DNA of 64,000 nt from assembly GCF_024494645.1 (NCBI RefSeq), contig NZ_JANHDJ010000002.1, positions 124,001-188,000 on the forward strand, written 5' to 3'. Positions 55,058-58,112 of this stretch are shown one piece after another (within the stretch, counting starts at the first letter, position 1; the number at the start of each line of letters is the position of its first letter). The notes beneath the pieces were generated by a model. The model worked only from the letters and a program-made list of their open reading frames with translations, was not told the DNA's origin and ran no database searches. A program made the position numbers and the translations under genes. Origin of the DNA: Halohasta litorea. GTDB lineage: Archaea; Halobacteriota; Halobacteria; Halobacteriales; Haloferacaceae.

Positions 55058-55789
55058 CTACGGTATCTGGATCGATTCGGTGCTGTTCGTCCGCGTGCCG
55101 TCGACCTCCGTTCCGGTTATCGTCGGCCGAGACTGTCGGATCGCCGCCCAGTCTGTGACATCGATCACCGTGCCGTTGGCCACGTCGACCGTGACCGAGT
55201 ACTTCAGCCTCGTCTCCCGGTTGTCGGTCGGATCACTGATCCCGACATCGGCTCGATCCTCGACGTAGGAGGGCTCACGGTCGACGACGACCGACCCTTC
55301 CCGGCTGTTCGATTCATTGGTTTCGAATCGGTACACAGAGACGTTGCCGGATGTGTTTACTGACGTGATGTTGTCGCTACGGTAGACTTCCGTCGTCTCG
55401 AGTTTGTAGATCGGGTCGACCGAGAACTCGACACGGTCCATCTCGTCGATCCGCTCGCTGACTGTCCGATTGTTGCGGGCGACCTCGATGGCGTGCTCGC
55501 GGTCGGCGTCGGTCAACGGCTGGCGTCGTTCGGCATTGACACGGTATCGACCGGATTCGGTCTCCTCGACCTCGACGGTGGTAACGTTCGACAGGTCATC
55601 CGTCACCGTCACCGTCCGGTTGCGGTCGGAGAACGTGACGTTCTGCTCGGAAACGACGAATTCTGCGGCATCGTCGCCGGTTGCATCGGGCGTCGGAATC
55701 CCGTAGCTGATACCGATTCCGGCCGCTGTCAGGCCAACAATAGTAAGCACAACCAGCATGCCGAGCCGGGACCGGAGCTCTCCCCGCAT
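55058..55789 (-). CDS. Exported membrane-anchored protein, paralogous to 56654-57241
   Basis: 243 residues. An uncleaved N-terminal helix (11-30) is followed by an extracytoplasmic Asn/Thr-rich domain with many N-x-S/T sites. Residues 92-127 (LTDADREHAIEVARNN, then VEFSVDP) match 54-90 of the protein at 56654 in a PepSY-like helix-strand pattern. Divergent from the HTH regulator gene. Function unknown. Confidence 0.7.
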   Translation of the reverse strand: MRGELRSRLGMLVVLTIVGLTAAGIGISYGIPTPDATGDDAAEFVVSEQNVTFSDRNRTVTVTDDLSNVTTVEVEETESGRYRVNAERRQPLTDADREHAIEVARNNRTVSERIDEMDRVEFSVDPIYKLETTEVYRSDNITSVNTSGNVSVYRFETNESNSREGSVVVDREPSYVEDRADVGISDPTDNRETRLKYSVTVDVANGTVIDVTDWAAIRQSRPTITGTEVDGTRTNSTESIQIP

Positions 55790-55830
55790 CGTGGTCCGAT
55801 AATTGATTGAAAGAGCTAATGAACGCTGTG

Positions 55831-55880
55831 GTGAAACGCGTTCCAAACTGGTTGAGAACGCGTTTCACGACTGTTTCACG
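55831..55880. promoter_or_regulatory. Inverted-repeat operator array in a divergent promoter
   Basis: A perfect 13-base inverted repeat: GTGAAACGCGTTC at 55831-55843 and GAACGCGTTTCAC at 55856-55868, spacer 12 bases. A third CGTTTCAC-like half-site (tgtttcac, 55872-55879) follows 11 bases after the second, one helical turn. It lies between the exported protein gene and the HTH regulator gene, upstream of the regulator's BRE/TATA (~55882-55903). Confidence 0.6.
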
Positions 55881-55927
55881 CGAAAAAAACGGTAACTGTT
55901 AAGCCGTGGTGTTAGATATCCGGCCGT

Positions 55928-56485
55928 ATGGATCGCCGCGGGTTTCGTGGTCGACAGCTCCTCCCAGCAGTTGGATTCGTGGGTGCGGTTGTCGTCCTCG
56001 CCGTCCAGTTGATTACCCCTTCGCCCGTGATGGTTTCGCTCGGCGAGAACGGTGCGGAAGCGACGCAGGTCGGACAGTATTTCACCTACTCGGACGTCTC
56101 GGTGATCGTCGTCAGTGCCATCCTCTGTGGGGCGAGCGGCGCGTGGTTACTCGTCGGCGGATCAGCGCCGACCACGGCTACCGCACACCACAATTCCACC
56201 GGTGACCACGACGCGACCGACACCACGCCGACGGGCGGGACGACCGCCGACTCCGAGGCAGCCTCACAGGAACGCTGGGAGCAGGTGATCGACCGGCTCC
56301 GTAACAACGAGAAGACGATCTACTCGCTGCTTGTCGACGCCGACGGCGAACTCCCACAGCGGGAACTCGTCGAAGCAACCGACCTCTCGAAGGCGACGGT
56401 CAGTCGCACGCTTGATACACTCGAACAAAAGGAGTTGGTCGAGCGCAAACGCCGCGGCATGGGAAACGTCGTTCACCTTCAATAA
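55928..56485 (+). CDS. Membrane-anchored HTH transcription regulator
   Basis: 185 residues. Two N-terminal helices (~13-34 and ~58-78), a Thr/Ala/His-rich linker, then a C-terminal winged HTH of MarR/ArsR style (IYSLLVDADGELPQRELVEA; KATVSRTLDTLEQKELVE; RKRRGMGNVVHLQ). The DNA-binding part faces the cytoplasm. Such one-component membrane regulators occur in Halobacteria. An inverted-repeat operator lies upstream of its start, and a related sequence precedes the next gene. Confidence 0.85.
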   Translation: MDRRGFRGRQLLPAVGFVGAVVVLAVQLITPSPVMVSLGENGAEATQVGQYFTYSDVSVIVVSAILCGASGAWLLVGGSAPTTATAHHNSTGDHDATDTTPTGGTTADSEAASQERWEQVIDRLRNNEKTIYSLLVDADGELPQRELVEATDLSKATVSRTLDTLEQKELVERKRRGMGNVVHLQ

Positions 56486-56515
56486 CCCTGCTCAGCCGGT
56501 TTCGAACCGGTTTCT

Positions 56516-56535
56516 AACACGTTCCGAACAGTTAC
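56516..56535. promoter_or_regulatory. Second, weaker copy of the operator-like sequence
   Basis: AACACGTTCCGAACAGTTAC matches the 55835-55854 sequence at 14 of 20 positions, with the core CGTTCC-x-AAC-x-GxT. It is ~120 bases before the exported protein gene at 56654 and just after the regulator's stop. Co-regulation is inference. Confidence 0.35.
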
Positions 56536-56653
56536 CAATAAACACACTTCTGGGCTTTCACGCAAGTCACAAGCGGGCAGCACAGTCCGTCGATGGCCCT
56601 CCCACGTCCGGTAAGAGGGTTGTCGACGGCCACGGCTGCCTCCGAGAGACAGT

Positions 56654-57241
56654 ATGCGATACACAACAGCAACACTCGCGGTACTGCTGCTGCTGGCCGT
56701 CGTGGCCGGTGGTGTCAGTGCGGCACCGATGACGAATCCGTCGACCGTAGCGTCGGCGGACACAGCACAGCCAGCAGAGTACACCATCGAGACGGTCGAC
56801 CCCGACGACGAGCTGACCGACCGGGACGTCGAGACGGCCCGCGAACTCGCGTGGGCCAACGACTCCGTGCGAGCGGCCGTCGACGCCGACACACCCGTCA
56901 ACTTCGAGGTCTGGGCACCGAACGGCGATGACGACCACGTCTCGGTCTGGGTCGACCAGAACGGGACGACAGTTGCGATCGCTGACATCGATCTCGACGC
57001 CGAATCCGTCCTCGCGGTCGACGAGCCGGAGGTTCTGTCGGTCAGTGAGACGGAGAGCTTCGAAGTCGAAACCACGCTCGATTCGTCGGCTGGGGACTCG
57101 ACGACGGTCTTCGGAGTGGAAATTGAAGGCGAGACGACAGCCGACGGAAGCGTCGACAACCGAACCGTCGATGACGACTACTCGACGATCGAGCTCGATG
57201 CGGACGACTACGACGTGGTCGACGGTGAGGGCGACGAGTAA
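56654..57241 (+). CDS. Secreted protein with PepSY-like segment, paralogous to 55058-55789
   Basis: 195 residues. Sec-type signal peptide MRYTTATLAVLLLLAVVAGG with cleavage near AAPM. Residues 54-90 (LTDRDVETARELAWAND, VNFEVWAP) parallel the flanking gene's 92-127. A hydrophilic acidic tail (SVDNRTVDDDYSTIELDADD) is typical of exported haloarchaeal proteins. Function unknown; probably controlled with its paralogue. Confidence 0.7.
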   Translation: MRYTTATLAVLLLLAVVAGGVSAAPMTNPSTVASADTAQPAEYTIETVDPDDELTDRDVETARELAWANDSVRAAVDADTPVNFEVWAPNGDDDHVSVWVDQNGTTVAIADIDLDAESVLAVDEPEVLSVSETESFEVETTLDSSAGDSTTVFGVEIEGETTADGSVDNRTVDDDYSTIELDADDYDVVDGEGDE

Positions 57242-57587: not shown

Positions 57588-58112
57588 ATGAACCGTCGTA
57601 CCCTCCTTGCCGGAGGTGGCTGCATCGGCCTAGCCTCGCTGTCGGGCTGTCTCGGAACCGTCGACTCCCTGTTGGAGGGCAACCCCGATGTCGACCGCCG
57701 CGATCCGAGTTCAGCTCCCCGTCCCCCGAGTTGGATGCAGTCCGACGGATTAGACCGGAACGCGACAGCCGAAACGGCTGTGCAGTTCGGCAGTACCGCA
57801 AACACTCATTGGGTGTACCTCACTGCGGCGTCGACTCGCTCGCTTGAAACCCACGTGACGGTGCGACGAAAGGGAGCCGATCGCTTTTATACGGAAACAG
57901 TGTCGCTTTCGCATGCGAGTTACGTTGTTCTTGGATTCGGACAGCCGAGTACGTACGTCGTCGACCTTTCGGTGGCGGGCGAAACAGCAACCGTCGAGGT
58001 GCCGGAGGATTTCGTCGACTGTAACGACTCCTCGCAGCTGGTCGTCGTCCGGTCGGATGGAACGGTCGAAAAGTCATCTCAGACGACACAAGTGGAATGT
58101 GGACCATTGTAG
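57588..58112 (+). CDS. Predicted Tat lipoprotein, unknown function
   Basis: 174 residues. Twin-Arg signal NRRTLLAGGGCIGLASLSGC with lipobox Cys21. A mature beta-rich domain (THWVYLTAASTRSLETHVTV; YVVDLSVAGETATVEVPEDF) of immunoglobulin-like or carboxypeptidase-regulatory shape. Two cysteines near the C-terminus (VDCNDSS, VECGPL) could form a disulfide. It ends the accessory cluster. Confidence 0.7.
   Translation: MNRRTLLAGGGCIGLASLSGCLGTVDSLLEGNPDVDRRDPSSAPRPPSWMQSDGLDRNATAETAVQFGSTANTHWVYLTAASTRSLETHVTVRRKGADRFYTETVSLSHASYVVLGFGQPSTYVVDLSVAGETATVEVPEDFVDCNDSSQLVVVRSDGTVEKSSQTTQVECGPL

Follow-up and report, generated by a model that had tools for sequence, protein, structure and literature searches.

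Layout of the three-gene locus

The window analysed here (the whole stretch of Halohasta litorea DNA under study, 64,000 nucleotides of a 3.8-Mb haloarchaeal genome) contains three adjacent genes that encode two exported proteins, P1 and P2, and a membrane-bound helix-turn-helix (HTH) protein, P3. They are flanked by what we take to be, from the translations alone, purine-biosynthesis genes and NADH-quinone-oxidoreductase-type genes. All three open reading frames named in a preliminary description of this DNA were recovered at the same coordinates and, as proposed there, the genes for the two exported proteins, on opposite strands, bracket the HTH gene. The features of the locus are as follows:

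55058-55789, minus strand: P1, membrane-anchored exported protein of 243 amino acids (open reading frame, hydrophobicity, model, orthologues in 66 of 391 haloarchaeal genomes)
55151-55546, minus strand: predicted cystatin/PepSY-like domain of P1, residues ~82 to 213 (AlphaFold model)
55808-55816, minus strand: conserved GGTCTTTCA-like element, in this case GCTCTTTCA, separating the P1 start from operator 1 (by eye, from aligned promoters)
55835-55864, no strand assigned: operator 1, in the divergent P1/P3 promoter, AACGCGTT-CCA-AACTGGTT-GAG-AACGCGTT, 11-bp phasing
55928-56485, plus strand: P3, protein of 185 amino acids with two transmembrane (TM) helices and a C-terminal DUF7343/MarR-like winged helix (PF24034, E = 8e-14)
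56300-56479, plus strand: winged helix of P3, residues 125 to 184, predicted to be cytoplasmic (PF24034 match)
56505-56534, no strand assigned: operator 2, upstream of P2, AACCGGTT-TCT-AACACGTT-CCG-AACAGTTA, 11-bp phasing, third copy degenerate
56552-56560, plus strand: conserved GGTCTTTCA-like element, in this case GGGCTTTCA, separating the P2 start from operator 2 (by eye, from aligned promoters)
56654-57241, plus strand: P2, secreted protein of 195 amino acids (signal peptide, profile match to P1)
56780-57022, plus strand: predicted cystatin/PepSY-like domain of P2, residues ~43 to 123 (AlphaFold model)

P1 has a single N-terminal hydrophobic segment (approximately residues 7 to 32), the TM anchor, in which the small residues G19, A23, G26 and G30 are conserved, followed by an outer part of about 200 residues. 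P2 starts with a Sec-type signal peptide, the last two residues of which are an invariant AA, contains no further hydrophobic segment and ends in an acidic tail that is of low confidence in its model. The hydrophobic segments of P3 span residues 8 to 39 and 56 to 79, and its outer loop (residues 30 to 56) is as well conserved as the first TM helix (72% versus 74% identity). With 51.7 bits against PF24034 (DUF7343; cutoff, 27.6), 37.9 bits against MarR_2 (cutoff, 27; E = 1.9e-9) and 34.4 bits against MarR (cutoff, 24.6), the winged helix belongs to DUF7343 and to the MarR type; the two TM helices are an addition to the layout of MarR-type regulators. Downstream of P2 lies a gene for a small putative lipoprotein (57588-58112, plus strand) with an LSGC lipobox-like sequence, which found no match in Pfam or in the related loci and is probably not part of the module.

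Relationship and fold of the exported proteins

The preliminary description had pointed to a segment, LTDxDxExAxExA, shared by the two outer proteins, and this 13-residue pattern is indeed present without deviation in both P1 (LTDADREHAIEVA) and P2 (LTDRDVETARELA). The strand said to follow it, VxFxVxP, was a less exact description: it reads VEFSVDP in P1 and VNFEVWAP in P2, such that VxFxV is common to both and the proline is displaced by one residue in P2. A BLASTP comparison of P1 with P2 alone did not find the shared segment, but such a single-pair comparison is too insensitive to serve as a test of paralogy. We therefore rely on family profiles, built from 15 P1 and 11 P2 orthologues. In the profile search that had been suggested as a check on the shared segment, the similarity survived, with an E value of 1.1e-7 for the full-length profiles and of 6.9e-6 (score, 37.5) for the ectodomains only, from which the hydrophobic N termini had been removed; the highest score among 60 column-permuted controls was 17.9. 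In a forced global alignment of the two profiles, the last strands also lined up. The P1 profile found P2 proteins at 3.6e-5 and the P2 profile found P1 proteins at 1e-6, and, when the latter was run over the whole H. litorea genome, P2 itself came first and the P1 gene second (E = 4.6e-4). Because profile comparison, permuted controls and own-genome search agree, we regard the paralogy as real, and P1 and P2 are best described as paralogues of one cystatin/PepSY-like domain. Searches of Pfam and NCBIfam with the two proteins gave sub-threshold noise only, and a sequence search of the PDB with the two profiles yielded nothing relevant and no oxidase.

The name of the domain derives from AlphaFold models, made from alignments of 17 (P1) and 14 (P2) sequences and confident in the domain cores only. 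Both models have the order beta-alpha-beta-beta-beta-beta, with a poorly predicted insert after the second strand in P1. While Foldseek returned no convincing match for either model, VIA-align ranked the cystatin-like D2/D3 domains of copper amine oxidase first for both: for P1, at a Z score of 8.2, falling to 5.0 and then to 3.6 for the unrelated entries, and for P2, at 7.3, followed by the propeptide chain of vibriolysin MCP-02 at 4.8. Z scores of 7 to 8 are of moderate strength and, taken alone, could reflect a common arrangement; the predicted fold draws its main support from the agreement of two independently built models on a single type of domain. The likeness to the copper amine oxidase D2/D3 and metalloprotease-propeptide (PepSY-type) domains consists of the order of helix and strands and the best structural matches, whereas P1 and P2 are stand-alone exported proteins that have no enzyme part and no sequence match to those families. 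In P1, P2 and eight distant relatives of P2, the Pfam PepSY model found no match up to an E value of 1, nor did the Pfam models for copper amine oxidase and its N-terminal domains match. Since the PepSY model does not match, we use "cystatin/PepSY-like" to denote resemblance, not membership.

Conservation of the gene association

A survey of gene neighborhoods, likewise suggested beforehand, confirmed that the triad holds together in other genomes, irrespective of synteny in the flanks. In 147 relatives, each of the 15 P1 genes adjoins P3 and each of the 11 strong P2 matches lies on the other side of P3. A wider set of 391 haloarchaeal genomes contained 69 P1 loci in 66 genomes; at 67 of these loci, the same TM-HTH gene lies within 3 kb of P1 (46 divergent, 21 on the same strand). 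P2 was found in 48 genomes and, with 3 exceptions, adjoins the HTH gene; two of the exceptional hits are near a contig start and one is on another contig. In a scan of named genomes, in which Halorubrum sp. Atlit-26R and Halohasta salina provided the closest loci, we found 16 loci with P1 divergent in every case, distributed over 12 genera: Halorubrum, Halohasta, Halomicrococcus, Halostella, Salinarchaeum, Halopenitus, Haloferax, Halorhabdus, Halobiforma, Halorientalis, Halorussus and Halosimplex. The triad also occurs on plasmids, where its genes are annotated as hypothetical, MarR family regulator and hypothetical. General synteny was considered as the cause of the association and rejected, because the flanks match within the genus only: the genes that flank the triad in the window recur in H. 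salina alone. Furthermore, several lineages have a rearranged version, in which a P2-like gene (longer, with up to four domain copies) is divergent from a P1-like gene that is followed by the HTH gene. Such retention of the components through rearrangement argues for joint function more strongly than simple synteny would.

P2 is the least constant of the three components. It is missing, or lacks the domain, in some loci that keep P1 and P3 (L075, L071 and L113), and, for that reason, we do not consider it essential to the module. P2 genes with a signal peptide and without the helix-strand domain were seen at L071:8923-9444, L113:8689-9081 and L111:8855-9520; in L071 and L113, the product contains repeats of [RK]LTADESF, a sequence seen once or twice in other P2 tails. 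In Halorientalis regularis (L112:8664-10965), the P2 profile matched two pieces approximately 1.5 kb apart, as if the gene had been interrupted by an insertion.

Viral contigs contained no relatives that the query used could find, and PADLOC gave generic winged-helix matches for P3 and none for P1 or P2. In two genomes of one genus (L077 and L078), a PspA/IM30 gene (L077:2810-3646, minus strand; PF04012, E = 5e-32; with a matching gene in L078) directly follows the TM-HTH gene and appears to have its own TATA-like box. As this arrangement is confined to one genus, the link to phage shock was not used as general evidence.

Phased operator arrays at the module promoters

The preliminary description did not mention the array of AACNNGTT repeats, a new finding that we refer to here as the operator. 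Allowing at most one mismatch per AACNNGTT-like site, we counted 25 pairs spaced by exactly 11 bp in the divergent regions of 17 loci, versus 0.03 expected, and 13 such pairs in the P2 leaders of 17 loci. The density of the exact tandem, AACNNGTTNNNAACNNGTT, in the module regions is 437 times that in the DNA around them at the same loci, and a tandem with no more than one mismatch is present in 27 of 33 loci. In the whole H. litorea genome, the exact tandem occurs at three positions, all at this locus, and a search for a wider regulon accordingly found no other site, a result that holds for the exact pattern and does not extend to weaker sites. Across 18 genomes, 11 of the 12 exact tandem sites map to these loci or to within 3 kb of them, and no site matched the reversed control pattern. 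The array also follows the genes: in the rearranged type, it is found in the divergent promoter between the P2-like and P1-like genes. In both the P1 and the P2 promoters, the array ends about 20 bp short of the conserved GGTCTTTCA-like element, which lies at a fixed distance of about 28 bp from the last operator repeat. Control of the module through this operator is, as far as can be judged from sequence, well supported, and the sharing of a locus-specific operator lends further support to a single regulatory unit.

One genome contains a second exact operator, AACGCGTTCGAAACGGGTT (L076:10189-10207), approximately 120 bp upstream of a gene for a small secreted-type protein with a ERLTADDSFELDF motif (L076:9833-10066, minus strand), 2 kb from the triad. 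This protein is likely an extra regulon member in that genome.

Outside the haloarchaea, P1-like genes were found in five genomes of one family in the same phylum. The set includes one protein with three domain copies and one locus with the same TM-HTH gene on the same strand, and all five genomes have an exact tandem operator approximately 90 to 110 bp upstream of the P1-like gene. Being close relatives of each other, they count as one independent case, and the pairing of regulator and operator either predates the split between the classes or was transferred. At one locus outside the haloarchaea, a P1-like gene and a paralogue precede a gene for a signal-bearing protein with a Lon-type (S16) protease domain (L123:5957-6781; PF05362, E = 5e-14).

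A proposed mechanism and its alternatives

P3 is the only DNA-binding protein that is always present, and we therefore strongly infer that it is the protein that would bind the arrays, which would make the circuit self-regulating. P3 would reside in the membrane through its two TM helices, exposing a short conserved outer loop and holding the MarR-like winged helix on the cytoplasmic side. There, it would bind the arrays, in which the AACNNGTT repeats follow each other at intervals of one DNA turn, both before P2 and in the divergent P1/P3 promoter, and, given the position of these arrays, could control its own gene and those of both exported proteins. In what seems the most likely wiring, P1 would pack against P3 through the TM helices and the conserved outer loop, P2 would compete with, or bridge to, P1, and the state of the outer proteins would alter the assembly of P3 on the operator, closing a local feedback loop. 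The sequence is compatible with P3 being either an activator or a repressor. A surface, envelope or membrane stimulus seems plausible, of which the pspA gene downstream in one genus is no more than suggestive.

Our preferred reading, to which we assign a probability of roughly 60%, is a trans-envelope module that regulates itself and works without a kinase, its membrane-tethered regulator being gated by exported PepSY/cystatin-like proteins. The more specific version, that two such exported paralogues, in haloarchaea as well as in one or more further classes of the phylum, gate a two-TM tethered regulator that controls only its own module via the 11-bp-phased operator and without a kinase, is tentative, and we would place it somewhat short of even odds. 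Gating by P1, and perhaps by P2, together with the contact and feedback that it presupposes, is suggested by the near-obligate pairing of P1 and P3, the conserved residues of the P1 anchor, the conserved P3 loop and the precedent of DbfQ and DbfS discussed below. Counting against the preferred reading are the size of the outer loop, only about 27 residues, the moderate fold matches (Z scores of 7 to 8, for models reliable in their cores) and the dispensability of P2. The preliminary description had read the locus as outside proteins interacting with a membrane sensor-regulator; the association of the triad and its locus-specific operator bear out the notion of one regulatory unit, and the contact between exported proteins and regulator is something that we infer.

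Alternatively, P1 and P2 could be nothing but output, for example as PepSY-like inhibitors or chaperones of surface proteins, with P3 sensing the state of the membrane through its TM helices and loop without touching either. In its favor, both genes are under the operator, the variation of P2 in copy number and domain content could be that of an effector, and a statement cited in PMC12714742 connects PepSY domains with protease inhibition. However, the near-obligate P1-P3 pairing, the paralogy of the outer proteins and the conservation of an exposed P3 loop all suggest contact, and we consider this explanation unlikely, albeit worth keeping in mind. Far less probable is that the module serves as a gauge of population density or of the secretion state of neighbors, with P2 as a diffusible extracellular signal and P1 as its anchored co-receptor. 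Autoinduction would be possible for a secreted, variable P2 under the same operator, but for P2 to leave the cell surface or act between cells would be conjectural, and some P1-P3 loci do without it. An equally poor prospect is a role in conflict, in which P2 would be a secreted, halocin-like antimicrobial, P1 the anchored immunity protein and P3 their regulator: the patchy distribution (66 of 391 genomes), the plasmid copies and the fast-changing P2 fit such a role, but neither toxin-like or halocin features nor PADLOC matches were found for P1 or P2, and P1 tracks P3 more strictly than does P2, which can lose its domain or multiply. Finally, that three unrelated genes became neighbors by chance and that the motif of the two outer proteins is a coincidence, as the failure of single-pair BLASTP might suggest, is contradicted by the profile matches and the operator and refuted by the 391-genome survey.

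Relation to known systems

In searches of the open-access literature, we found neither the triad nor DUF7343 described, and, within that literature, the earlier remark that no described system has this composition still stands. The closest published principle there is a bacterial one. In the DbfQRS pathway of Vibrio cholerae, which is activated by membrane damage, the periplasmic PepSY protein DbfQ binds to the sensor kinase DbfS at its outer domain and biases the output of the kinase (PMC12714742). As in the triad, such modules encode a small exported PepSY-type protein beside a membrane sensor, sometimes with two such proteins and sometimes on the opposite strand (PMC12714742). In contrast, they employ a histidine kinase and a response regulator in bacteria, where the triad has one two-TM DNA-binding protein in archaea; neither a kinase nor a response regulator is annotated beside two plasmid-borne triads. 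Moreover, P1 and P2, whose contact with P3 is putative, lack a Pfam PepSY match.

ArnR and ArnR1 of Sulfolobus acidocaldarius are, like P3, archaeal membrane-bound one-component regulators with a winged/HTH domain, and they bind repeated inverted-repeat boxes in a promoter (PMC6396743). In ArnR, whose targets are archaellum and pilus genes, the HTH is N-terminal and is followed by a HAMP-like domain, a sensing domain and the TM helices (PMC6396743). P3 does not share this layout: its TM helices are N-terminal, its HTH is C-terminal, it has no sensing domain and it is paired with exported paralogues. With respect to the DNA site, the upstream activating sequences of the haloarchaeal GvpE are comparable, as repeated short sites in a divergent region from which both directions are controlled; they, too, adjoin the core promoter, and they activate (PMC4390858). 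GvpE itself is a soluble, leucine-zipper-like activator that uses two 8-nucleotide elements, 4 nucleotides apart (PMC4390858), whereas the triad has an 11-bp-phased array and a membrane-tethered winged helix. In summary, this archaeal module would unite a membrane-tethered one-component regulator and PepSY-like exported partners and would do so without a kinase.

How information flows from surface to genes in archaea is poorly known and, to our knowledge, most membrane-bound HTH proteins of haloarchaea are without an assigned role. The module described here provides regulator, exported partners and DNA site together, in genera with culturable, genetically tractable members, and the switching of a membrane-tethered archaeal regulator therefore becomes testable with simple reporters. 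If gating proves true, the bacterial principle, described only recently, by which a PepSY protein tunes a membrane sensor would extend to a system without a phosphorelay, and the module may be a kinase-free route by which outside signals reach the genes.
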